Source: Amaurobius ferox (lineage: Eukaryota; Arthropoda; Arachnida; Araneae; Amaurobiidae). Taken from it: DNA of 64,000 bases. Position 1 is the stretch's first letter. Every line of letters starts with the position of its first letter. Positions 1-48,457 of the stretch are shown here, piece after piece. A program made the position numbers and the translations under genes. The notes beneath the pieces are model-generated. The model saw only the letters and a program-made list of their open reading frames with translations. It did no database searches and had not been told where the DNA came from. Location of the stretch: NCBI GenBank assembly GCA_951213105.1, contig OX578140.1, positions 123,311,649 to 123,375,648 of the forward strand. Direction: 5' to 3'.

Positions 1-138
1 TCGGGCCAGGTTTAAGCACTAGTACTGTCGGCCATGCCAGTTTAAAATATGAAATTTTGGTCAATGCAGACATGTATCCTGTGTCTCATGATGAAAAGTA
101 GTCCAGGATTAAGGCCAACTTCATGCCCTATGCTCGAC
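1..138. other. Unassigned left edge
   Basis: No coding frame, RNA gene or recognised repeat can be supported here. It leads directly into a tRNA-like SINE head. Confidence 0.5.
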
Positions 139-183
139 AGCGTAGTGGTTAGCATGCGAGGATTGTACTCGATGACCCAAGGT

Positions 184-2925
184 CAGGGGTCGGCAACCTG
201 CGGCTCGCGAGCCGCATGCGGCTCTTTTGTTGTAAAGTTGCGGCTCTCCAGTTCCATACGAAAAAATTAATAATTTATTATCAAAACCCTTAAAAAATAA
301 GAAAATATATTTTTAAGTACCTAATTTCTCAATAGCTTCTATATTCATAATCGTTAATTACAAATCGCTACGCTTAACATGACCGTAATGAGATAAATTT
401 GAACTATTGTTTTGTTCTTAGAGATGAGACTCCGTGACCATGTTCATCTTTCAGCCAATTGCATTCCATTTCCGTCTCCCCCAAACAGCCACCGTCTAGA
501 CGTGTTGACAGTCAGTCATCTCGGATAGCGCGGTCGACGTTACGTTGCATGTGTGTTAGTTTAATCGCTTGCGGTTTTTGCGTGTCTATTCGCTTGTTGT
601 TTCAAGAAGAATACGATTTGGAAGCGAATTATCTTCTCAAAGGTATGTACGCGTATAATATAATAAAATCAGTAACAGAATTGGACTACATATCTGAGGA
701 TCGTGTTAACGAAGTAATAATGGTAAATAAATTGTTTGCCGTCTTAGATAGCCAAGTAAAATTAAAAAAAAATCATTTTTTCAGCTCCGCTGCCAGCATG
801 GCATCTAGTAAAAAAAACATAAGAACTGAAGAAGAAAACCGAGAATTCAATCAGGATTGGACGGAGTCGTTTGCATTCATATGTAACACAGACGGCCTTC
901 CGACTTGTCTCATTTGCCACGAAAAACTCGGACACAATAAGAAGTCAAATTTGGAGAAACACTTCACTACAAAACATACCCAGTTTGCTAGTAAATATCC
1001 AACCGGTGACGCACGAAAAAAAGCTGTTGAAGAGCTCCAAAAAAAACCAACAACCGTCAAGTTCTATGCTAAGTAACTGGGCGCAATCTTCCAATAATAT
1101 AAATCTGGCAAGCTTTGCAGTATCATTAGAAATTGCAAAAAGAGGAAAACCATTCACAGATGGTGAGTACGTCAAAGATTGTTTTATACGTGCATCTGAA
1201 GAACTGTTTCTTGATTTTAAAAACAAAGCAGAAATCATGAAAAAAAAATCAAAGATTTGCCATTATCAGCTAAAACAGTACAAGATAGAACTGCTAAAAT
1301 GTCTTCAAATGTAACACATATGCAAGTGGAAGACATTCAACTGGTTTCTGCCTTATCACTTGCTATAGATGAGTCTTGCGACATAAAAGACACTGCACAA
1401 GTTACCCTTTTCGTCAGGTGTATGTCGTCCCAAGGTCCAAAAGAAGAACTGCTAGGATTGCTACCACTCTCAGGGCAAACTCGTGGAGAAAATATAGCAA
1501 ATGCTGTGCAAAAATGCCTGGAAGACAATGGAATCGATATAAATAAAATCGTTTCTATAGCAACTCATGGAGTCAGAAGTATGACAGGAATACATAGAGG
1601 GGTAACATCAATTCTTCAGAAAAAAATAAACCACGAAATTCTAACGTTTCATTTATAATTCATCAAGAAGCACTTTGTGCCCAAACATTTCCGGTCGAAA
1701 TAGTTGAGGTCATGAACTTGGTAATTAAGATTATTACCAGCATCTTGACAAAAGCACTCTACCATTGCCAGTTTAAAGATTTCCTTGAAGAAATAGATAG
1801 CCAGTTTTCTGACCAACTTCTGCACAATAAAGTGCGATGGCTTTCCAGAGGTAACGTGTTGCAACGTTTTACTTTGTGCTTGAGTGAAATAAAAACATTC
1901 CTCAATGAAAAAAAGCATTGACCATCCCGAATTGGAAGAATACAAATGGCTGCAAAAATTCAACTTCATGGTAGATACGACAATGAACTAAATCTAAAAC
2001 TGCAAGGAAAGGGCAACCCAGCCTACGCCTTGCTTGAAGAAGTAGTTTGTTTCGAAAAAAAATTTCTTCTTTTTGTTGAAGACATGGAGAGCCGTAAATT
2101 ACTTCATTTTAAAAATCTGAAGCAATATCGCGATGAGACCAATGCAACTATTGACACGAATTACTTCAGCATAGCTTTAAAAGACATGAAGGATGGATTC
2201 GCTGAGAGATTCGAGCAATTCAAACAAACAAAAGTACTCTCGCGTTCATAGTAAATCCTCTCACTACAAATACAAATGCGATCAACATTGAGCCATTTGC
2301 AATTGATGCTGGATCGCTCCAAATGCATTTGCTAGATTTGAAAAGCAAAGACTTGTGGAGTGGCAAGTTCGCAGAACTCAAGAACCAGTCGGAAGAGTTG
2401 GAGGTCCAGAAATGCATGCACGTCGCACAGCACAAGTGGAAATAAATTCTAAAAAAAATCCCGCGAGTTGATGCCCTCATATTCGGCGCATGGAATCTTG
2501 CAGAATGCTACAGTGAGGTGAAGAAATTGGCATATGGAGTGCTGACGATCTTCGGGTCGACATATTCGTGCGAGCAAGCGTTTCCTTGCATGAATATAAT
2601 AAAAAGTAAAGTTTGAAGTCAACTAACAAATAAAAATCTAGAGTCGTGCTTGAAACTTAAAACAACAAGTTATAAGCCAGATTTAATCAAACTTTCAAAA
2701 GGCATGTAAAGCCAATGCTCCCATTGATGTAATTTGTATATTTGTGTTTTTATATGAATAAATATTATTCCGTATTTAAAGCCGTTTATTTTAAATCAAA
2801 AATTAAATATATATAAGCAAATACTATAATATTGAAACGAACATTTTTAATGGCTCTTTAAAAACTGGGAAATTTTGTAAATTGTAACTTTTGGCTCTTC
2901 CGTTTCAATAGGTTGCCGACCCCTG
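184..2925 (+). mobile_element. hAT-1 DNA transposon with TIRs and 8-bp TSD
   Basis: The ends are 16-bp perfect inverted repeats, CAGGGGTCGGCAACCT at 184-199 and its complement ending at 2925. The 8-mer CCCAAGGT lies immediately outside both ends (176-183 and 2926-2933). CAGGG-type ends with an 8-bp duplication are the hAT signature. The 2742-bp element carries a broken transposase. It landed in a SINE. Family assignment to the ZBED5/GTF2IRD2-like hATs comes from the protein. Confidence 0.93.
798..2709 (+). pseudogene. hAT-1 transposase (ZBED5/GTF2IRD2-like), broken
   Basis: Cut-and-paste transposase remnant. The natural start is probably the ATG at 798 (protein begins MASSKKN). An N-terminal zinc-finger-like segment reads LPTCLICHEKLGHNKKSN then KHFTTKHTQFASKYP. 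The frame then shifts near 1015-1050 within A-runs, again near 1240, and again near 1650-1700. A stop at 1919 follows LNEKKH. The RNase H-like core includes LAIDESCD (about 1360) and KVRWLSRG (about 1830). The end, about 2490-2709, has the hAT dimerisation region (SYSCEQAFPCMN-like) with an internal TGA. At least four lesions make it non-functional. Length and segment order fit a complete transposase of about 600 residues. Confidence 0.85.
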
Positions 2926-3343: not shown

Positions 3344-3601
3344 TCCTTTCTTAAAATTTGGTATCTTTCGGTAATCGAAAAGATCATCACTTTTGGTGCG
3401 GGAGTTTGGGGAAAAGCATTGACTGGGGCCCAGGTCAAAAAACTTTTATCTCTTCAAAGGATTTTTCTTCTAAAAATTTCTTGTGGTTTTCGGACTACTT
3501 CTAACATTTCTCTCTACTCCTTAACTGGTATCCCCCTATTCACCTTGTAATAAATTCTCTTTACAAGAAATTCACTTTTTGGAAACTCCGCCTTAACCTT
3601 T

Positions 3602-5985: not shown

Positions 5986-7849
5986 AGATGTCATTTTCGG
6001 TTTTTCCGACCGCATGACTGTACGAAATATATAAAAGAGAATTAAATGAATAGTTCTTTCAAAAATAAAGTGTACATATATATCATTTACCATAAAGACT
6101 TCTTGATTAATTTCTTGTTTTGTATGAATTTTTCCATTTTAGATTAGAAACATGAAATATTTCAAGAACCACATCTTTAAATGATTACACATTTAAAAAA
6201 TTACAAATTAAATAGCTATTTTCGTAACACTTTTATACGTACTTATGTTTTATTTTATTTTTGAAAAAAGAAATGTTACAAAATTTGAAGGTTTTCTCTT
6301 AGTCCATCCTCAGCGAAAATAAATTGGCCTGTTACATTCATCAATTGAAATAATCATAGAAAATTTCATTTGATTTTTATAACTTGTTTGAGAATTATCG
6401 TACCTATAGACATCATTGAAAAATAGTTGATTCGTTTTCAGGAATGCTTAAAATACTTATCCATCAAATTTAAGAATCAAATTTTTGACTTATCACAATA
6501 CTTTTCCTTTACATAATTCATTGTAGGGGAATTTAAAATGACCAGCAATTCATTTCAGTAATATAGCCAGATTTTTCACTGGGAGAGCAGTTTTTAAAAC
6601 AAAAACTCTAAATCTGATCAGTTGTAACCACAATAACCCTATCCCTTGTGGTCCTTGTGGAGAATAAGACGAACAAGTCCTCATTGAGGCAGATCTAAAC
6701 TCTTGCGACAACTTGCTACTAATCCATCAATGTCAAATTTTGAGATGGTGCTATCATGCAAAGGTTTAATATTTTCATTTTACCACTATTTATTGCATAA
6801 ATAACCAATTATAAAATTTGGTTTCAACATAGCTCAGATTTTCTTTTTGCATAATAAAGTAGAATTTTTAATCTTTCAATGAGCTTTTAAAAAAAATGTA
6901 ACTTGATTCAAATGTTTTTCATCATTGAGCAAAGTTGAAAAAACACATTTTTGCACTTTTGCGTTAATTTTAAAAATACTTTTAATGCATTTAAAAATAA
7001 TTTTAAAAATGATTCCAATGCTTATAGTCTAATTCTATGTTTTGTAAAAAAATTTAGGAAAAAATATCAAAATTCATTGTTAGATTTAGCTATATTCCTT
7101 CACCCATTAATTAACATGGAATTCTCAGGTTAGATTCAGGTTTTTTTTTCTATATGTTAAGAGAACGTTTCCTCTTAACATATATTTATTTAGAATCTTC
7201 TTTGAGGATGAATCCATGGTTTTCTCAACTTCAAATTTTAATATAATAGAGATAAATAGCATATCAACAAAATATAATTTTTTGAAAAATATTAAAGATA
7301 CACCTTTTTTGCAGTTCAAGGTCAAATCAATTGACCTTGTAATGAAAAATATAATTTGCTGGGTCATGTGACATACCAAAAGAAAAGGCATACCTTAAGC
7401 TACAAAATAAGCTTTATTTCAGCGCAATTCGTTGATTAGATTAAAATTATAAAGACGTTTGAATATGTCAATAATGAAAAATTACCAAATTTCCCATACT
7501 TCAAATTTTTATAAATAAAAAATAATGAAAATGAACCCCTTATCTGTGGAGTATATTTCAGGAAAATGTGTCAAAAATTGAAAAAAAAATTTATTCTTTA
7601 ATTTTGTGCATCATAACATTTAAAAAGGTTGGAAAAATTTTATTTTGTAAAAATATAAATTTTTATATGAAATAACTACTTATTTAATATTTTGATATAC
7701 ATGTGGAAAATTAATGGATTATATTCATATTTTACTCAAAATTGTTTAATTATAGCAAAATAAATCAAATAATCTTTTGAATTTCACAAATTATTTCACA
7801 GAATCATTTTTCAGAATTTCACAAATCCTTTATAGTATGATATATGCGA
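5986..7849. other. Non-coding AT-rich stretch with one hairpin
   Basis: No convincing gene. It contains only short open frames of low complexity. The one clear structure is a perfect 13-bp inverted repeat at 7151-7184, listed separately. Confidence 0.5.
7151..7184. repeat. Perfect 13-bp hairpin
   Basis: Arms TATATGTTAAGAG (7151-7163) and CTCTTAACATATA (7172-7184) around an 8-base loop. No T-tract or gene context gives it a role. Confidence 0.7.
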
Positions 7850-29022: not shown

Positions 29023-29067
29023 ATTTCTTTCTCCTAGGTTTTCTGTGCCCTTTTCTTGTTTTTGCTT

Positions 29068-32000
29068 ATGGGCTGTCTTGAGGTTGTGCAAATTAATCTG
29101 CATCATAGTCGATCTGCCTCTGCTATTCTTAGCAAAAGGCTTTTCAATGGTAAAGCTGATATTGCTCTTATCCAAGAACCCTGGACCTGTAATGGAAAGA
29201 TTTTGGGTCTAGGGATCAAAGGATTCAATGTCTTTTATGACACATCCTGTACCATACCCAGAGCCTGTATTGCTGTCAGCAACAAGCTCAATGCTGTTCA
29301 TCTGGTTAAATTCCTTCATGGTGACAATGTTGCCATCAGTGTGAAACTTAAAACTGATGAACATATGATGGAATACATCTTTGCTTCTGCCTATCTTCCT
29401 TATGAAGATAAGGAAACTTTTTCTAAGGTCATTATTAATCTTACTGAATATGGTAATAGTAAAAAAATGATCATTGGTTGCGATGCAAATGCCCATAACA
29501 CTGTTTGGGGCAGTAGTAATTGTAACCGTAGGGGTGATGATCTTTTAAATCAGATCCTTCTTCATAAGCTCTATTTACTTAATAAGGGTAATACTCCTAC
29601 CTTCGTGACAGTAAAACGTCGCGAGGTTATTGACATTAGCCTGTGTAATAGTTCTGCTTATGATTCGGTAATTAATTGGAAGGTTTTAGATGATATATCC
29701 TTGTCTGACCATCAATTAATTTCTTTTTCTGTTAAAGGTCCTGTAAAAGCTTTAGAGGACAAGGGTAGGAACCGTAGGAAAACTAATTGGGGTTCCTACA
29801 AAGAAGATCTTAGGGCCAATTTGGCCAATCACATTGGTGAGTATTCCTCTATTGAAAACGTGGATCTGGCTGTTGACTTTGTGCAACAGACCATCATCAG
29901 TACTTTTCATAGTAACTGCAGAACCACGATAGCTGACTCCCCAAGGATTGTTCCTTGGTGGTCTAGTGAGCTCAGCCGGTTGCGTGGGAAATGCAGGAAG
30001 CTTTTTAATAGAGCCAAGAAGAATGGTGATTGGCAGACTTATAAATCTGCCCTCACCTCCTATAATAAAGCAGTTAGGGATGCCAAGAGAAATTCTTGGA
30101 GAACATACTGCGAAGGTATTAATGATGCCCCTGCCGTTGCAAAACTTGTTAAGTTGATGGCTAGAGACAGAAATTGTAAACTTAACACTGTCAAGAAGTC
30201 CAATGGTGACTTTACTGTTACTGGTGAAGAGACCCTGAATGAGCTGTTCAGAGTTCACTTTCCGATTTCTCATCCTGTTGTACAGTGTGACAGTGGTATT
30301 GCTTGCTCCACGTCCTTGTCTGATGACAATAGCTGGAGTATTGCTAGGAGCATTGTTACTCTTGATAGGGTTAAATGGGCAATTAATTCCCATAAACCCT
30401 ATAAAACTCCGGGAACTGATGGCATCATTCCTATTCTTCTCCAGGAGGGAATTGAGATGCTTGCTTCCGTTCTCTGCAATATCTACAGAGCCTGTATTGC
30501 CCTTGGTCATATACCAAATGCGTGGAGGCATACTAAGGTAATCTTCATTCCGAAAATTGGAAAGGATAATTATTATGAGGCCAAATCTTTTAGGCCTATC
30601 AGCCTTACGTCTTTTCTTTTAAAGACTATTGAAAAGCTTATTGATAGGTATTTAAGGGAAGTGATTCTGGCCTCTAAGCCCTTGTCTAGTTCTCAACATG
30701 CCTATCAACCGGGCAAATCTACGGATACTGCTCTATACAGTCTCTCCTTTATTTTAGAGAAAAATCTCAATGCCAAGGAAATCGCTCTTGCTACCTTTCT
30801 TGACATTGAAGGTGCCTTTGACAAAGTACCAATCGACACTATTCTTGTTGCTCTAAACAGAAAAGGTGTTGATACCAAGATATCTTATTGGATTAAGAAC
30901 TTGTTATCTAACAGGTATATCTGTGCATCTTTACTTGGTGAAAGTATGACTGTGCATGCACTTTCGGGCTGTCCACAAGAAGGTGTGCTCTCACCAATTC
31001 TCTGGTGTCTTGTGGTGGACTCTCTTTTGGAAAGCATTAATATCTCTGGTGTCTCTTGCATTGGATATGCTGACAATGTTGTCATCATTGCCAGGGGCAA
31101 ATTTGGCAACACTGTCTCTGACATGATGTCTACTGCTCTTAGGAGGGTTGAGACATGGTGTAAAAATGCTGGTCTTACGGTTAATCCGCAGAAGACTGCT
31201 TTAGTTGCGTTTACAAGGAAACGCATACTTAATCTTGGGAATATTTGCTTCTTTGGACAGAAGCTTATTTGCTCCAAGGAGGTTAAATTCTTGGGAATTT
31301 ATTTTGACAAGGAACTTAATTGGAAGAGGCACTTGGACTACTGCACAACTAAAGCCAGAAGAATCTTCTGGTCTTGTAGGAATGCTATTGGGAAAACCTG
31401 GGGCCTTAATCCCAGAGCTATCCATTGGATTTACTCGATGATAGTCTGTCCTATCATTTCATATGGGTCCATTGTTTGGTGGTCCAGAATTAGAAGTGAA
31501 ACTGCTAAACTTGATTTAGTTAAGCTTCAAAGGATGGTGTGCATTGCAATCTCCGGATGCATGAAAACCACTCCTACTGCAACTCTTGAACTTCTACTTG
31601 GCTTGCATCCGCTCTATATGCGCATTGAAGCAGAAGCACTTATCTGCATGAACAGACTCAAATATCTGAAATACTGGAAAGATTACTCAAGGCATCTATC
31701 TTGGGGTAAACTTAATAGTAATGTTGCTAGGCATCCTTATTTCTGTATGCCACCTGATGGCATACATGTCAAATTTACGTTTGATAAGCCTTATGAAATT
31801 CTTGTCCCCTCGCGGGATGATTGGAAGAGGACTCCAACCTACAATAAACACAATTGTTTTGTATGGTACACAGACGGCTCGAAGATTGGCACTAGTACTG
31901 GTGCTGGTGTCTGTTGCCCTGATGATGGCACTGAACTATCTTATCCGCTTGGTAATTTTGCTACTGTCTTTCAGGCTGAAGTATTTGCCATTCTCATGTG

Positions 32001-32691
32001 TTGTAGAATTTGCTATGACAGAAAGTATGAGAATAGCCAGATTTTCATTTGTTCTGACAGCCAGGCTGCTCTTATGGCTCTAGGGAAGTTCACTGTGACG
32101 TCTTCCCTTGTCTGGGAATGCTATAATGCTCTCTGTACAATTGCTAGTAATAATAGTGTCATTCTGTACTGGGTGCCTGGTCATTCGGGCATTCCTGGCA
32201 ACGAATTGGCTGACGAACTTGCTAGGAAAGGCTCTAGTACTCCTTTTGTGGGTCCTGAGCCGGCCTTGGGTATTCCCAATGATCTTGTCAGAAGAATTGT
32301 CTATGACATCTTCAGAAAGCTTCAGTGTGAGAACTGGCGTGACACTAAGGGTCAAAGGCAAGCGAAAATCCTCAACTGTAATTGCCCTAGTACACGTCAA
32401 AAGGAACTTTTCAGGCTCAGTAGAACTGGCATCAGGAGAGCTGTTGGACTCCTTACTGGACACTGCACTCTCAAGAGACATCTTAATATTATGGGTGTCT
32501 CCAAGGATTCGCTTTGCAGAGGCTGCAATTACAGCGAAGAAACTGCAGCTCACATTCTATATGATTGTGAGGCCTACTCTGCTCACAGATTCGAACACAT
32601 TGGTCGTCATGTGATTGAACCTTGGGAGCTGAACGACATTCCTGTCAAGTGCCTGCTTATTTTCGCATCGGCTACTGGTCTCTTTTCTTAG
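29068..32691 (+). CDS. LOA LINE ORF2: endonuclease, reverse transcriptase, RNase H
   Basis: 1207 codons uninterrupted from the ATG at 29068, 45 bp after ORF1. The apurinic-type endonuclease shows QINLHHSRSA, LIQEPW, CDANAHNTVWG and LSDHQLISF. The reverse transcriptase shows FRPISLTSFLLKTIEKLI, AYQPGKSTDTAL, FLDIEGAFDKV, GCPQEGVLSP, and then GYADN at 31063-31077. RNase H shows WYTDGSK, FQAEVFAI, ICSDSQAAL and VPGHSGIPGNELADELARKG, with all catalytic positions present. The C-terminal CRGCNYSEETAAHILYDC is a Cys/His motif. In RT the YADD second aspartate is Asn (AAT at 31075-31077), about residue 670, which should abolish polymerisation. Otherwise it looks intact. Confidence 0.9.
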   Translation: MGCLEVVQINLHHSRSASAILSKRLFNGKADIALIQEPWTCNGKILGLGIKGFNVFYDTSCTIPRACIAVSNKLNAVHLVKFLHGDNVAISVKLKTDEHMMEYIFASAYLPYEDKETFSKVIINLTEYGNSKKMIIGCDANAHNTVWGSSNCNRRGDDLLNQILLHKLYLLNKGNTPTFVTVKRREVIDISLCNSSAYDSVINWKVLDDISLSDHQLISFSVKGPVKALEDKGRNRRKTNWGSYKEDLRANLANHIGEYSSIENVDLAVDFVQQTIISTFHSNCRTTIADSPRIVPWWSSELSRLRGKCRKLFNRAKKNGDWQTYKSALTSYNKAVRDAKRNSWRTYCEGINDAPAVAKLVKLMARDRNCKLNTVKKSNGDFTVTGEETLNELFRVHFPISHPVVQCDSGIACSTSLSDDNSWSIARSIVTLDRVKWAINSHKPYKTPGTDGIIPILLQEGIEMLASVLCNIYRACIALGHIPNAWRHTKVIFIPKIGKDNYYEAKSFRPISLTSFLLKTIEKLIDRYLREVILASKPLSSSQHAYQPGKSTDTALYSLSFILEKNLNAKEIALATFLDIEGAFDKVPIDTILVALNRKGVDTKISYWIKNLLSNRYICASLLGESMTVHALSGCPQEGVLSPILWCLVVDSLLESINISGVSCIGYADNVVIIARGKFGNTVSDMMSTALRRVETWCKNAGLTVNPQKTALVAFTRKRILNLGNICFFGQKLICSKEVKFLGIYFDKELNWKRHLDYCTTKARRIFWSCRNAIGKTWGLNPRAIHWIYSMIVCPIISYGSIVWWSRIRSETAKLDLVKLQRMVCIAISGCMKTTPTATLELLLGLHPLYMRIEAEALICMNRLKYLKYWKDYSRHLSWGKLNSNVARHPYFCMPPDGIHVKFTFDKPYEILVPSRDDWKRTPTYNKHNCFVWYTDGSKIGTSTGAGVCCPDDGTELSYPLGNFATVFQAEVFAILMCCRICYDRKYENSQIFICSDSQAALMALGKFTVTSSLVWECYNALCTIASNNSVILYWVPGHSGIPGNELADELARKGSSTPFVGPEPALGIPNDLVRRIVYDIFRKLQCENWRDTKGQRQAKILNCNCPSTRQKELFRLSRTGIRRAVGLLTGHCTLKRHLNIMGVSKDSLCRGCNYSEETAAHILYDCEAYSAHRFEHIGRHVIEPWELNDIPVKCLLIFASATGLFS

Positions 32692-41785: not shown

Positions 41786-42433
41786 CTATATTTTTTTTTC
41801 AAATTCTTCTTTTGTTAAAGAACCATAAATTTCTCTTATAATCTGTTGAATTTCTCTAAGTCCAAAGAATATAATATAATTACAGTTTATTCTTATATCT
41901 TTAGGTGTAGAATAGTATGATTAAGACAAATAAATTATAGAAGTATTTTTATGTCTCCCCATATAAAACAATTCTTTTTATTTCATTTTGATTTTCCTCA
42001 GCTATACAATCATCATATATGATTAGATTTATATTTTCGGGTTCCAAGTCATCTAGAGTAATAAAGTCTTCTAAATTAGTAGCAATTGTAAATTCTCTTT
42101 TCTCATATTTTTTAAATTCTTTTAATAATGTGTTCTTTACATCTTTACTTATTTTTTTAGTTTTAATAATATCTTCTCCTTCTATACCATCAAACATTGT
42201 AAATTTTATAATAACATCTTCATAATAATCTAAATTTTTTGTGCATATATGGAGTGCATCAAAATTTAAAGGACCTATGCCTTTTTCAAAACCAAACAAA
42301 AAATTATATGTTAAATTGAATTTACCTGAACCTGATTTTTTAGTCATTAAAAGTCTGGATGAATAGGTAAAATAGGATTTTGGTTAGAATCTATAAATCT
42401 ACTTCCGTTTATATAATTTTTTACTATACTCAT
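41786..42433 (-). pseudogene. Packaging ATPase (FtsK/A32-like) pseudogene
   Basis: The start ATG at 42433 is preceded on the minus strand by CTAAATAA. The P-loop region reads KSGSGKFN (Walker A, with F where the family has T/S). Walker B is INLIIYDDC. A later stretch RHKNTSIIYL then YYSTPKDIRINCNYI is typical of Polinton/adintovirus genome-packaging ATPases. One frameshift lies between the N-terminal residues and the P-loop (near 42350), another near 41950, and an in-frame TAA lies soon after. About 215 codons in total, near the usual size. The product would translocate DNA into capsids; this copy cannot be translated whole. Confidence 0.82.
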
Positions 42434-42444
42434 TTATTTAGAAG

Positions 42445-42535
42445 GTATTTTTACAGAGCGTAAATTTATTTTTACAGTATGTAAATTTATTTTTACAAGG
42501 AGTAAATTTATTTTTACAGCATGTAAAAATCAACC
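42445..42535. promoter_or_regulatory. Divergent intergenic region with three 21-bp repeats
   Basis: GTAAATTTATTTTTACANNNN occurs three times in exact 21-bp steps (42460, 42481, 42502), with half units at both borders. The core GTAAA...TTTAC is itself palindromic. It lies between the ATPase start (minus) and the next gene (plus), so a shared promoter/operator or replication-related role is plausible. That is inference. Confidence 0.75.
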
Positions 42536-42542
42536 TAAATAA

Positions 42543-43397
42543 ATGAATGAATTAGAAAGAGAAAGAGAAAGAAAATTAGAACAAGAAAGAATAAATGCTA
42601 TAAAAGTTATAAAATTAGAAAAGGAAAGACAAGTATATAATGAAAGCGAATATAAAAAGAAATTAGGTATTCAAGAAGAATTATATGAGTTTCATAATCC
42701 CATAATAAAAGAAATGAAAGAACAAGATATAAATAGAAAAGAAGAATTAAATAAAATAACAGATGCTATTGATAATATATCACATTCTCAGTTGGAATAT
42801 TCGTTAGAGTCCTCTAGAATTATTCCTAGGTTAAAATACGATGATAGTTTAGAGAAAATGTTTACAGAAAAAGGATCAAAAGGTATTCAAAACTATACCT
42901 CATCTAAATTATGATTTGAATAAAGCATTTGATACTCATTTTTTTAAAAAGGCTTTAAATTACCTAGTGAACTTGACTATGAAAATGTGGAAACATTGAA
43001 GGATGTTGTAAAAAAGGCACTAGAAGTAAAAAATGAACCTATAGTGACTAAAAGACATGCGGCATCACTTTTAAAAAGGTCAAAAGATGAAGAAATACTA
43101 AAAACAAATAAAGAAATTGTACGGAACAACCATATTTTTCTTCAATTTAAATTATATATAAAGAAATTAAATTCTATTATAGATTTAATAGAACCACCTT
43201 CCAAGAAATATGGAGGAGGTATCTCAAGAGATAATTTACAAGTTTTATTAAATAAATATGCTCAAATGAGATCAAAAGGAAATAAAGCTGTAAAATTACA
43301 TAATCATATAGCTATTTTAACAGATTTATTATATAAAAATGGCGATATATCAAAAAAAGAAATTATGCAAATTTATGAAAAATTCCTCTTTAAATAA
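42543..43397 (+). pseudogene. Adintovirus-type coiled-coil protein, two frame slips
   Basis: The ATG at 42543 follows CCTAAATAA. Residues 1-40 are a Lys/Glu-rich coiled coil (NELERERERKLEQERINAI). The first frame ends at 42914. The sense text shifts frame near 42890 (PHLNYDLNKAF) and shifts back at a T-run near 42940, after which FKLPSELDYENVETLKDVV and the C-terminal domain (RHAASLLKR, EPPSKKYGGGISRDNLQVLL) run to TAA at 43395. The two slips cancel in frame. About 285 residues in all. Function not recognised. It is next to the X-like gene and shares its start motif; a structural virion component is a guess. Confidence 0.65.
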
Positions 43398-43735
43398 ATG
43401 AGTAATTATATAGAAAATGAAGTTCATTTCAGCGAAGGACAGATTGATAAATTAAAATCTGCTTTAAGAAATGGAGAAGAAATAACATTACAAATAGATA
43501 CATCTAAAACTCCTAATTATAATATGTACAGGACTAAAACACAAATTAATCAACTTAATAAAGGAAAAAGAATTACTATAAGTAAGACTCTATTAAAGAA
43601 AAATGGAGGTTTTCTGCCTTTTTTAATTCCTATTTTAGCATCTTTAGGTCTGGGAGCAGCTAGTGGAGCTACAGGTTAGGGTACTAAAAAAGTATTGGAT
43701 AAAATATCTGGATCAGGTCATCCTAAAAAAAAAAA
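43398..43735 (+). pseudogene. Small virion-like protein with hydrophobic segment and basic tail
   Basis: The ATG at 43398 abuts the preceding stop (TAAATG). It reads an N-terminal acidic part, TKTQINQLNKGKRITISK, then GGFLPFLIPILASLGLGAAS, a glycine-flanked hydrophobic helix. TAG at 43677 interrupts; the same frame goes on with GHPKKKKKSWG. The combination recalls small adenovirus-type core/membrane-active virion proteins (X or VI-like) found in Polintons. The assignment is by pattern, with moderate confidence. Confidence 0.6.
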
Positions 43736-43742
43736 AAAATCT

Positions 43743-44336
43743 TGGGGGAAAAGGGTATTTCAGAATTGGGAATATCAGACGAAATGATTGAAAAAAATAT
43801 GAAAAAGGATTTAGAGATGTATTTACTTCAGATTTATTATCTAAACAGATAAGAAAATTTGAAAATGGAATCATTAAATTAGATATATCAACAGGTCCAG
43901 GAACTCATTGGGTTTGTTATTATAATGCTCCTAAACATAAATTTATAGAATAGTTTGATCCTTTCGGTAAACCAGGTTTTTTTACAACAACCGACATCTG
44001 TTAAATGTGGTTTATTTTGTATGAAATATATAACTGAAAGAAATAAAGGTAATTCTCTGGCAAATGTAATATATACACAGGCACGATACCCACTTCCCCT
44101 ACCACCAACCTCTCGGAAGGACTTACAGACCCACATGCTTAACGTGATCGTACTCTGCGTGAACACGGCGGCAGTTTTGGAAGTGGTGAGAATTGAAGCC
44201 GGGCCTACTGAGAGCAATTCCTGCACGCAAACCACTGGGCTACCATGCCCTTATAAATGATTGTAGACTTCATGAAGAAAATTATAAAATGCATTTTCCT
44301 AAAAATGATTATAATTTATTTATGAGAAATTTTTAG
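43743..44336 (+). pseudogene. Adenovirus-type cysteine protease (C5-like), interrupted by SINE
   Basis: Pieces in shifting frames give GISDEMIEKNM, then LDISTGPGTHWVCYYN (catalytic His in THW, about 43904), FDPFG (about 43958; Asp position) and SVKCGLFCMKYI (nucleophile region CG, about 44006). These are the hallmarks of the C5/Ulp1-like maturation proteases of adenoviruses and Polintons. A TAG replaces a codon just before FDPFG, and there are frame shifts at about 43800 and 43970. A minus-strand SINE (44085-44250) splits the C-terminus, which resumes with HEENYKMHFPKNDYN. In the intact family it cleaves virion proteins. This copy is dead. Confidence 0.85.
44085..44250 (-). repeat. tRNA-derived SINE copy (C)
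   Basis: The minus strand reads GGTAGCCCAGTGGTTTGCGT, a B-box-like GCTTCAATTCTCACC, then GTACGATCACGTTAAGCATG and TCCTTCCGAGAGG, matching copies B and D. It lacks the distal tail. It is inserted in the protease gene. Confidence 0.85.
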
Positions 44337-44610
44337 ATGCTGGTTTAAATAACATCAATTCAGAAACAGGATGTATGGTAGATTATACGAATTTTGGTAA
44401 ATTATATCCTATTATATGTTTTGATCTATCTAAACATGTAAACTATATAAATGTATTAAGCAATTTAAGAATTACAAATGATTATACTTTAAGAAATAAT
44501 ACATAAACAGATTTTGCTTTTTATTATATTTTAAAAGATCGTAGAAAATGTTCTCTAAATATGAAGGCTCAAACCATTGAAATGTTTTCCATTTTGAGTT
44601 AGTCATATTT
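44337..44610 (+). pseudogene. Capsid-like C-terminal remnant (unassigned)
   Basis: Frame fragments GCMVDYTNFGKLYPIICFDL, NVLSNLRITNDYTLRNN and DFAFYYILKDRRK appear before the fibre-like gene. Position and beta-strand-rich text suggest the tail of a jelly-roll structural protein, but no family motif allows naming. In-frame TAA near 44505. Confidence 0.35.
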
Positions 44611-45056
44611 TAGGACTATATAAATGAAGGCATATTATCCTTCCTTTGATGATGAATTACAACAAGGTTCAATAGGACCTCCAGGATTAGGATTTAAATT
44701 AACACATGATGGAAATTATGATATGGAAAATGAAATTTTAAAACATTGTGAAAATCCTATTGATGATTATGATGTGAGTACAAAAAAATATGTTTTGAAT
44801 GAATTAGAAAGAAATTATCAAAGTTTTAAAGAAACGATGGATAATACTCAAAATTATATAGATACTAGTTTTTTAAATTTTGTTAAAGAAACAGCTGATA
44901 AAATTAAACAATTAGATAAAAATCTTATAGGGAAAATAACTACTAGTTATGAACAAATTATCAAAGAAAGATATGAAAAATATTTTATAAAAACAGAAAA
45001 ATCTGCTGATGTTAAAGACAAAAAAATTATTAATTTAACAGATCCAGTTGCAGGTA

Positions 45057-46339
45057 CAAGGTCTGTATAAAAAGAATTGGGAAATTTTTTTTCCTGACGT
45101 GAGTGTACGTTGTAGCGCACATGCTTGGTAGTGGGGAATGTCAAGACGCGCCAAGCAACAGTCGCCTTCGAGCATTCGTTCAGGCTACATCGTGTTTTTA
45201 GTGGACCCTGTCGAGTGACTCAGTGCAAGTGCGAAATGCAGCGAACGATTGAACAACGGTACGCGATCGAATTTTGTGTTGGATTGGGGAAATCGATTAC
45301 GGAGACGTTGGCCATGATTCGCCAAGTGTTCAAGGATGAAAGCATGTCACAAACAGCAGTTTTTAAGTAGCACAAGCTCTTCAAAGATGGCCGAGAGAGT
45401 GTGCAGGACGAGTCTCATGCTGGACGCCTGTTGACATCAAGAACCAATGACAACGTGTAATGTGTGCATGAAGTGCTGAATTCAAACCGTCGTTTAAGTG
45501 TGCGAATGGTCGCAGATGAAATTGGCATTGATAAGATGACAGTGCACAGCATTATCAATGAAAATTTGGCGATGTGAAAGATCTGTGCTAAACTCATCCC
45601 GAAGGTTTTGACGGATGAGCAAAAGCAGAGGCGAGTGTCTGCTTGCGAAGACCTTCTGCAATGCGTTGAAGAAGACCCTGGCTCTTTGGACATCATCATC
45701 ACAGGAGACGAGACTTGGATATTTGAATACGACCTGGAAACAAAGCGGCAACGTTCGGAATGGCACACTGCGGGATCACCTCATCCAAAAAAAGCTCAAA
45801 TGAGCAAATCCAGAGTGAAAGCCTTGCTGATCATTTTCTTCGACGCAAAGGGGGTTGTCCACTACGAAAGACAGTGAATGGTGCTTTTTACCTATAAGTG
45901 CTAAGAAGACTGAAGTGAAGGGTCAACTGGATGAGGCCAGCCATCGCCGGAAATTGGAAATTGCATCACAACAATGCAACCAGCCACACCTGCTCCAACA
46001 TGACCGACTTCCTGACGATAAACGGCATAATGACGGTTCCCAACCCCCTTACAGTCCCGACTTGGCACCAGCAGACTTTTTTCTTTTCCCAAAAGTGAAA
46101 TCCTCCCTCAAAGGACATCACCATGGGACCCTAAGTGCCATCAAAGAAGCTTGCATGCGTGCCCTTAAGGACCTTTCGGAATCCGCCTACCAGGGAGCCT
46201 TCGAGTCGTGGAAAAGCTGTTGGCAAAAGTGTGTCAACGCTCAAGGGATGTACTTTGAAGACTTTTGAGGTATTGTAGCAATATCTGTAATAAATCTATT
46301 TTTCTGAAATTTTTCCTGATACTTTTTATACAAACTCTG
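45057..46339 (+). mobile_element. Mariner-2 transposon
   Basis: 1283 bp with TA on both sides (45055-45056, 46340-46341). Inverted ends CAAGGTCTGTATAAAAAG and, from the right, CAGAGTTTGTATAAAAAG. Size and ends are typical of mariner. It lies inside the fibre-like gene. Confidence 0.92.
45237..46268 (+). pseudogene. Mariner-2 transposase (DD34D type), broken
   Basis: Starts MQRTIEQRYAIEFCVGLGKS (helix-turn-helix). Stops occur near 45368, 45459 and 45577. The catalytic core has IIITGDETWIFEYDLETKRQ (first Asp). LHHNNATSHT has Asn where the second Asp is expected. After a frame change, YSPDLAPADFFLFPK keeps the third Asp. It ends GMYFEDF at 46268. Stops, frameshifts near 45880-46030 and loss of the second catalytic residue make it inactive. 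Confidence 0.88.
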
Positions 46340-46880
46340 TAAAAACGCTGTAAATAAGAGGTATTTGGAAAAGAAAGCTTTAGTGTTGAAAAATGATATT
46401 TATGTTGCAAATAATAAAAAAATATCAAATGTAGCGGATCCTGTTTTAAATAATGATGTAGTTACTAAATTTTATGTAAATAATAATTTTTTTTATGCTA
46501 CAATAGAAAGTGAGTTTGAAGATTTTTTTACACCAGATCATAAAAAAGTAATATTTTCTAGATTTAATGGTAGTTTATTAAATAAAGATATGATATTAAC
46601 AACAGATATGATTATGAAAATTACAGTACATCTTGAATCTAAAGAAGATATAAGTCCTATAATTTCACTTATGGTAGGTGAGGAATATATTTATAATAAA
46701 AATACAACATTTGTCTATGAAAATAATATAAGTAAAATTTTTATTACAAAAGGTAAACAAGGAGATGAAATTAAAATGTATGTTAGGCCATCTGGAGATA
46801 TTAATTCAAATATTCTTAAAATTCATTTAGAAATGGAAAGGATGTTTTTAGGATGAGTTTCAAAATTTCCTTCCTAATAA

Positions 46881-47371
46881 ATGGAGGAGATTAAAGTTAA
46901 TTGGGATGAAATTTCTAAAACTAATTTATCTGAAGATATAAGAAATTAAAAATATTCAGAACTTACAGAAACTTTTATGGAAGAGCTTATAGATTATGTT
47001 GAATAGAATGTTATAACTATCTATAAAAATTTATCTGAATCTTTCATAGAAAAATATGAAAAAGAATTTGATTGGGATCTTATTTCTAGATATCAGAAGC
47101 TATCTGAAAAATTTATGATAAAACATTCAGATAAAATAACTTGGGTTTTATCTTTCAATTTCAGAGTTTAAGTGATGAATTTATTATAGAATATCATGTA
47201 AGACTCGATATACATAAAGTCGTCTTGTTTCAAAAACTTTCTGAAGACACTATGAGAAAATTGCAAGATGAATTAGATTGGAAGCTTATAACTCAATATC
47301 AAGCATTTAGTGAAGAATTTATAGTAGAATTTATAGACAATTTAGATCCTTGTTTACTGGTTTATATATAA
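46881..47371 (+). pseudogene. Repeat protein of DW..IS.YQ.LSE.FI units
   Basis: The ATG at 46881 follows CCTAATAA. The text consists of about 20-residue repeats: FDWDLISRYQKLSEKFMIKH, LDWKLITQYQAFSEEFIVEF, plus degenerate units (NLSESFIEKYEKE, SLSDEFIIEY). Two in-frame TAA/TAG (about 46948, 47004) and one frame change near 47140 break it. Similar DW..IS..QKLSE.FI repeat proteins are known from phages and large DNA viruses; function is not established. Confidence 0.65.
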
Positions 47372-47384
47372 ACAATTACACAAT

Positions 47385-47600
47385 CAATCAAAAAATTAAA
47401 AATTGGTATCACGTCTGCATTCAACAAATAAAATTAAGGACAAAACGTCTTTAAAATGAAAGGTCATTTATTAAAACATCTTAAAAGACGTACAAAGCAT
47501 TTTAAAACCACCAGAGCGCTTTCGGATATTAGTACGCCCTTCATCAGTGGCTACATGAATAGTAAAACATGGAATGTTCATATATGGAGACCAGTTATAC
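47385..47600 (-). repeat. Retroelement-like 3' segment (unassigned)
   Basis: The minus strand has GCCACTGATGAAGGGCGTAC then TCCGAAAGCGCTCTGG and a downstream AATAAA, a word pattern seen near ends of several animal retroelements. CTGATGA...GAAA recalls a hammerhead core, but the stems pair poorly. The family cannot be named. Confidence 0.3.
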
Positions 47601-48160
47601 AGCAAATTTGCATAAAAATATAAAATGGTAAATGAACACACTATTAATTAGTACAAAATAATCCATGAAATATACGCGGAAAATACAAAAATTACTTTAA
47701 ACGCTTTCAAATTGTAAAAATATTACAAGAAAAGTACTATCAATACATTATTTAGTTACAGGAAAAGAATAATTTCAGAAGAACCATCAAGTGCAATTTT
47801 CATGAGATTGACGTCATAAATAACTATTAAGAGATTTGAATTGCATAGAGTCGAGAATGAGTCGTCAAGCATTAATTTAAAATTTACCTGATCACTTTTA
47901 TAATCTTAATTGGAGAAATCTAACTGTATTACTATTGTGTGAACTCAATGTAAAGTTTGGTCATTATGAAGTATAAGAACTTTGTGAAGTTAAGCAGGCA
48001 TTGCAAGAAACTCTTTATCTTTTGAGACAAATCATTAATAAAAAGGTAGATAAAATACATTCTGTAGACGACATGTTTGAAAAATAAATTCGAGCAAAGA
48101 AAAAGGATTTACAGATTATGAGGCGATAGAATTATACTGTTAAAAAATAATTCTAAATAA
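47601..48160 (+). other. Degraded coding-like stretch of the adintovirus block
   Basis: Around 47918-48086 a frame reads LLLCELNVKFGHYEV, stop, ELCEVKQALQETLYLLRQII then VDDMFEK, resembling a decayed small gene. No family identified. The part before it is featureless. Confidence 0.35.
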
Positions 48161-48457
48161 ATGATTAACATATTTGAAGATATAGAAACTCTCTATCATG
48201 ATAGGGATAAGGAAATCTGTGAATTATCTAGAAAATGTGAAAAATTACTTCAATGCTATGATGAATATAATGATTTATACATTAAAAATTTACTTTCAAA
48301 ATAATTTGCTCAAATGTACATAATAATCAATGATGAAAAAAATGATGACATTAAAAAAGAAGGTCTGCAGTTATTAATAAATGAGATGGATAAACATTTT
48401 GTTTACCAAAAAATATTTGAAGCTGAAAGATTTAGAGAGCGAAGCTCACGCTTTTAA
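48161..48457 (+). pseudogene. Small alpha-helical protein, one nonsense codon
   Basis: The ATG at 48161 follows TCTAAATAA, the same start motif as the other genes of the block. It reads MINIFEDIETLYHDRDKEI then CEKLLQCYDEYNDLYIKNLL. TAA at 48302 is followed in the same frame by 50 further sensible codons (KKEGLQLLINEMDKHFVYQK) to TAA at 48455. Predicted helical, 98 positions. Unrecognised. Confidence 0.5.

Follow-up and report, generated by a model that had tools for sequence, protein, structure and literature searches.

A 64,000-nucleotide stretch of the genome of the spider Amaurobius ferox (GenBank assembly GCA_951213105.1, contig OX578140.1, positions 123,311,649 to 123,375,648 of the forward strand), referred to here as the window, contains a broken Polinton in which a short AT-rich word recurs at the starts of genes. 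The genes of this copy and the copies of the word are listed in Table 1. Ten pieces of the window were searched against Pfam. The pX-like open reading frame (ORF) matched Adeno_PX (E = 8.5e-5; 22.8 bits, under the curated cut-off of 25); the other matches were weak, and the ATPase piece alone gave no Pox_A32 match. In PHROGs, a piece of gene F10 (47135-47368) matched phrog_3532, a family of unknown function, with E = 5.6e-19 and had a second match at 9e-7, and the other window pieces gave weak matches only. A protein search with the pX-like ORF returned 29 homologues, and the four that carry species names are from Araneus ventricosus (two) and Trichonephila (two); a search with the F4 piece returned no match. 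The first-pass annotation had called the element a Polinton, an identity borne out by a relative elsewhere in the same genome (L066). Its capsid protein matched DJR-like_dom above the cut-off (E = 5.2e-9) and is therefore of the double-jelly-roll type, of which the window retains a remnant only. Its ATPase matched Pox_A32 (E = 5.6e-12), identifying an A32-type packaging ATPase, and its integrase (1-651, minus strand) matched rve (E = 1.3e-14). The L066 protease match to Peptidase_C5 was weak (E = 3.8e-4; 20.6 bits against a cut-off of 21.3). A large right-hand ORF, putatively PolB-like, was read in its N-terminal part, which gave Rho_N and SAP-like matches.

Table 1. Genes of the Polinton copy in the window and copies of the start word (positions counted from the first nucleotide of the window)
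Feature	Positions	Strand	Remarks
ATPase remnant F3	41949..42433	-	Frame broken; identified by eye and from its position
F4 gene	42543..43397	+	Open in two pieces (42543-42914, 42948-43397); identified by eye and from its position
pX-like gene F5	43398..43679	+	Adeno_PX match; shorter than the copies in relatives
Adenain-like protease remnants	43700..44070	+	Fragments, by eye
Major capsid protein remnant	44270..44600	+	C-terminal part; by-eye match to A2
Fibre-like gene F9	44624..46856	+	Divided at ~45071-46340 by an insert that by eye is mariner-like
Gene F10	46881..47371	+	Broken; assigned by position and by eye
21-bp tandem repeats	42446..42528		TTTACA...TGTAAA dyads, between the divergent F3 and F4 starts
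Word CTAAATAAATG	42431..42441	-	Start of packaging-ATPase gene remnant F3
Word CTAAATAAATG	42535..42545	+	Start of coiled-coil gene F4, divergent from F3
Word TTAAATAAATG	43390..43400	+	Start of pX-like gene F5; the F4 stop adjoins the ATG
Word CTATATAAATG	44616..44626	+	Start of fibre-like gene F9; the sole window start without AATAAA
Word CCTAATAAATG	46873..46883	+	Start of gene F10
Word CTAAATAAATG	48153..48163	+	Start of short gene F13, seen in the window only

A shared motif had been proposed for six gene starts in the window, and it is present at all six (42433 on the minus strand; 42543, 43398, 44624, 46881 and 48161 on the plus strand). The spellings given for it held overall, with corrections at 44624, which reads CTATATAAATG, and at 46881, which reads CCTAATAAATG. 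A stop codon described as abutting an ATG was also found as described: the frame at 42948-43397 ends in a TAA directly against the ATG at 43398. Across the 64 kb there are three exact copies of the 11-mer CTAAATAAATG, each of them at a start (42433, 42543 and 48161). Among the 277 ATGs of the block, four directly follow TAAATAA, compared with 2 of 2208 ATGs elsewhere in the window. A looser form, TA[AT]{0,2}ATAA within positions -16 to -1, precedes 6 of 6 starts; other ATGs have it at 17 of 271 within the block and at 72 of 2479 over the whole window. The six starts were perhaps chosen partly by the word, which makes counts confined to the window somewhat circular; relatives of the element lessen this circularity.

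Relatives were sought in the spider's own 3.56 Gb genome with the pX-like gene, and at least 150 scored matches, the window included, were obtained from 1865 candidates. Forty-seven of the matches, on many contigs, have one identical score, and several dozen share another, which suggests a recent expansion of copies. Twenty relatives, each a stretch of ~10 kb, were combined with the window to give 21 loci, all from one genome and related by descent. They fall into three lineages, L057-L072, L055/L056 and L053/L054, the last being nearest to the window among six loci compared, and the lineages are ~64-70% identical in nucleotides across aligned pieces. A 512-bp piece of the fibre-like gene (L055, oriented 6705-7216; L066, 6517-7028) is 94.7% identical, as against the 64-70% of other aligned pieces, and this sequence comparison suggests exchange between elements.

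Gene starts at the 21 loci were set by homology over the first 60 residues, and 172 of 209 rows were kept. The 37 dropped rows comprised 29 matches to internal repeats of F10 that lack an ATG and eight others without an ATG or a usable N-terminal match; the word still lay nearby in five of these eight. TA[AT]{0,2}ATAA was found within -16 to -1 at 163 of the 172 starts (94 of 103 distinct upstream sequences) in 12 gene families, two of which are represented by a single locus (F12 in L053 and F13 in the window), compared with 134 of 4484 distinct upstream sequences of other ATGs. The word was far commoner at starts, with 112 of 121 observed, than in dinucleotide shuffles (mean 12.2 of 121, largest 22), and it is confined to its place, with 0 of 121 at -40 to -24 and 6 of 121 at -33 to -17. 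Several of the nine starts without the word are off by a letter or two, and the miss at F3 in L055 reflects a wrong start, the signal there marking a later in-frame ATG that agrees with the other F3 starts. Of the shorter forms, TAAA occurs at 169 of the 172 starts, AATAAA at 160 and TAAAT at 151. The claim that nearly every gene of the block carries the motif is thus upheld in the relatives as well, with the integrase, the protease (start unclear) and the large right-hand ORF as exceptions.

The word ends 0-8 nt before the ATG, and 9 nt before it in one row. Six F8 rows have a listed ATG at distance 9, and five of them contain another in-frame ATG directly after the word. The ATG may shift with the word staying in place, as in F9, where the distance is 0, 2 or 8, and the word before F5 is kept though F4 ends directly before the ATG (L061) or overlaps it by 4 nt (L066). 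Codons 2-12 are under purifying selection, with a pooled ratio of nonsynonymous to synonymous differences per site (pN/pS) of 0.23, and the adjacent ATG is therefore generally used.

Upstream sequences were also aligned on the word with the families weighted equally. The resulting profile is A-rich at -23 to -16 and T-rich at -15 to -13, followed by a weak spacer and the core at -7 to -1, with little information beyond -24. Scored with the family in question held out, the 22 nt upstream of AATAAA distinguished starts from 428 other AATAAA sites with an area under the curve (AUC) of 0.934; against 103 AT-rich AATAAA sites the AUC was 0.899, and AT content alone gave 0.712. Applied to L055 and L056, a matrix built from L057-L072 selected 16 sites, every one of them 0-4 nt before an ATG: 12 listed starts, two instances of the better F3 start and two starts of a previously unlisted gene. 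Twelve of the 16 listed L055/L056 starts with AATAAA passed the matrix. In L066, which lies within the training set, all 10 passing sites are listed starts, and the start of the new gene failed there. This overlooked gene, exposed by the signal, encodes a small basic protein of 76 residues in L055 (5005-5232, minus strand; MNKHRLQRKSKKIHGRGFF-like) and gave no Pfam match. All 20 relatives have the gene, some with a short frame; its start carries AATAAA in 20 of 20 and the stricter word in 18 of 20. Immediately before the start signal, perfect inverted repeats with stems of 7-13 bp were observed, their sequence differing by lineage. They occur in 12 of 16 distinct upstream sequences of F8, 10 of 13 of F9 and 2 of 12 of F7 (L055/L056), with shuffle means of 1.8, 1.3 and 0.4, and could be operator sites or the 3' ends of the preceding genes.

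The genes that lack the signal appear to reach expression by another route. The integrase has no ATG of its own in the stretch read and is encoded in the -1 frame relative to F1, a phospholipase-like gene that precedes it. In 8 of 13 F1 rows (L055, L056 and L065-L070), T TTT TTA, a heptamer found at retroviral frameshift sites, stands 18 nt before the F1 stop. It is also present in L064, whose row is truncated by the end of the stretch; the other four F1 rows are shortened and lack it. A strong stem follows the heptamer after 8 nt in L066 and L065 (z = -2.2 for L066), and the fold in L055 is not clear. Judging from these elements, the integrase seems to be made by -1 frameshifting from F1. The protease overlaps the end of the pX-like gene (~3430-3510, oriented, in L053-L072). 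Among 21 rows, the protease frame is long and open at -1 in 13 and at +1 in three, is fused in L058, where the pX-like gene and the protease form one open frame of 271 codons, and is broken in the rest. Heptamers of the form A AAA AAA/G or A AAG GGN lie near the overlap in most of the -1 rows, and the protease may also be produced by -1 frameshifting. Adintoviruses have predicted frameshifts at their penton and hexon-adenain genes, according to passages of PMC11071296. At the large right-hand ORF, 5 of 6 loci have AATAAA 47 nt upstream of the ATG, and the tract scores there fall at the 62nd-73rd percentile of controls. Given which genes are without it, the signal may be a feature of the genes for capsid and assembly and not of those for replication.

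We consider it probable, at roughly two chances in three, that the word is the initiator part of a promoter encoded by the element and giving nearly leaderless mRNAs. Computation established the word, its close tie to the start codon, the use of that codon and, for two of the three lineages, the tract. From these features we infer promoter function and a transcription start inside TAAA, since initiator promoters have this layout of tract, spacer, TAAA and start codon. Such a promoter would open with an AT-rich tract, first A-rich and then T-rich, located ~13-23 bp ahead of the word's end; after a short spacer would come TAAATAA or a variant (TAATAA, TATAATAA or TATATAA), with the start codon 0-8 nt further on, and transcription would begin inside TAAA. 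Every gene or overlapping gene pair would have its own promoter and a nearly leaderless mRNA, and the genes without the word (the integrase and perhaps the protease) would be expressed by -1 frameshifting from the preceding gene. Host RNA polymerase II (Pol II) could read the signal as an atypical initiator, or a cytoplasmic DNA virus infecting the same cells could supply the polymerase. No gene for an RNA polymerase was noticed among the stretches read, which do not include the element ends and were not the object of a search aimed at one. Measured against these results, the earlier proposal of a promoter or initiator fused to the start codon stands as far as an element signal is concerned, since it recurs at non-homologous genes, on both strands and in three lineages, and needs amending as to fusion, the word lying 0-8 nt away. 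The single word envisaged is likewise better described as a core, TAAA/AATAAA, joined by a weak upstream tract into a two-part signal.

Several observations weigh against the promoter reading or narrow it. The copies share descent, so that the independent evidence amounts to a dozen gene families and not 172 starts. For two genes, F1 (pN/pS 1.07) and F8 (0.72), codons 2-12 do not clearly show purifying selection. AATAAA, the most constrained six letters of the signal, is also the poly(A) hexamer. The matrix trained on L057-L072 performs weakly in the window lineage, passing 1 of 5 starts in the window, 0 of 4 in L053 and 1 of 3 in L054, and among the sites that do pass in L053 and the window stretch, three lie elsewhere than at gene starts. 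With its own family held out, F13, the gene found in the window only, scores at the 49th percentile of the controls. In the window lineage the upstream tract differs or has decayed, and the core word is kept. As to reach past this genome, no protein relative was found in viral contigs with two window ORFs, the ATPase piece and the pX, capsid and ATPase alignments, and none in prokaryote genomes or phage records. A DNA pattern for the divergent pair had no match in viral contigs either. A single-motif pattern retrieved 22 viral stretches with TAAATAAATG, 20 with one copy, one with two and one with three; the matched copy stood before a frame of at least 100 codons in 8 of the 22, and the matches were judged to be chance or unrelated.

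Given the constancy of AATAAA, the strongest competing explanation is that the word is the poly(A) signal of the preceding gene and, the genome being compact, overlaps the start codon of the next. The hexamer at 160 of 172 starts and the tight packing of the genes speak for this, but the divergent genes F3 and F4 both carry the word with no gene seen reading into either. Their ATGs are 68-120 nt apart in 14 of 19 loci and 529-1237 nt apart in the other five. In 10 of 16 loci the F2 ATG precedes the end of the F3 stop by 16-62 nt, and cleavage directed from there could therefore occur ahead of that stop. At junctions of intact neighbouring genes, moreover, the distance from stop to ATG ranges from -62 to +114 nt, yet the word tracks the next ATG, and at F4 in both L053 and L054 it is replaced by TATATAAATG. 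Taken together, these points make the poly(A) explanation quite improbable. A translation signal, whether Kozak-like or part of a leader context, would account for a word located at a start codon that is used, and is unlikely on other grounds. The Kozak preference at -3, as a general rule rather than one drawn from the host's own genes, is for a purine, whereas many genes here have T and only 79 of 172 starts have a purine; the distance to the ATG varies, and the tract 13-23 nt upstream is part of the signal. In its favour, initiator slippage in the precedents gives 5' poly(A) leaders that are said in passages of PMC6211774 to act in translation.

The remaining explanations fare worse. TATAAATA-like forms and the AT richness of the region recall the TATA box of a host Pol II promoter, an assignment we regard as very unlikely: initiation ~30 nt downstream would fall inside the ORFs, yet codons 2-12 are selected in the pooled data (F1 and F8 excepted as above), and no second conserved box is seen beyond -24. 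That the word reflects nothing but AT richness or the stop-start overlap of packed genes is hardly credible. The loci are indeed AT-rich and a TAA before the ATG makes stop-start joints, but other ATGs carry the word at 134 of 4484 and shuffles at a mean of 12.2 of 121, an in-frame TAA at -3 occurs at 91 of 172 starts, and AT content alone reaches an AUC of 0.712, as against 0.934 for the upstream score.

Among known systems, the promoter reading finds a close likeness in poxviruses, as the first-pass annotation had suggested. TAAATG is a poxvirus late signal, with a late/intermediate form TAAAAA-N14-TAAA, and the start word here resembles it in placing TAAA(T) at or near the start codons of many genes on both strands, with an AT-rich tract and spacer upstream (in two of the three lineages here). 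The likeness does not extend to every letter, exact TAAATG being found at 97 of 172 starts and the tract here running A-then-T. The cytoplasmic linear plasmids of yeast (virus-like elements, VLE) are protein-primed. According to passages of PMC6211774, successive genes of such a linear element (12 pGKL genes) have a TAAA initiator, and the vaccinia TAAAT and yeast plasmid TAAAN initiators mark the transcript start and yield 5' poly(A) leaders. The plasmids differ in encoding their own RNA polymerase and capping enzyme (passages of PMC6211774). Their TAAAN is accompanied by an upstream conserved sequence. Late promoters of virophages, including mavirus, similarly place a single word (e.g., TCTA) before the genes of a small integrating Polinton relative, but the word is another and the promoter is shared with a known giant helper virus. 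Adintoviruses and animal Polinton-like viruses share pX-like, A32-type ATPase, double-jelly-roll capsid and integrase genes with the element described here; no start signal is described in passages of PMC11071296, in whose main text "promoter" and "TATA" have zero occurrences.

Two further features of the loci were recorded. Dyads of the TTTRCT..AGYAAA type recur in the F3/F4 divergent region in all three lineages, and their number there is not clearly above that in shuffles. Elsewhere in the window (29038-32691), an open frame of 1217 codons was identified by eye as a long interspersed nuclear element (LINE) with reverse transcriptase and RNase H.

To our knowledge, the mode of transcription of animal Polintons is an open question, and a uniform start signal would allow transcription by the host to be tested directly against transcription of the virus type. 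A virophage-like life, with promoters suited to the slipping polymerase of a cytoplasmic (poxvirus-like) DNA virus and with poly(A)-headed, nearly leaderless mRNAs, is a doubtful extension of the promoter reading; if it were true, integrated copies would be expressed mainly when such a virus is present. The signal also offers a precise means of finding Polinton genes and their starts, one overlooked gene having already been found with it, and it is a trait that bears on the debate over the relationships among Polintons, virophages and large DNA viruses.

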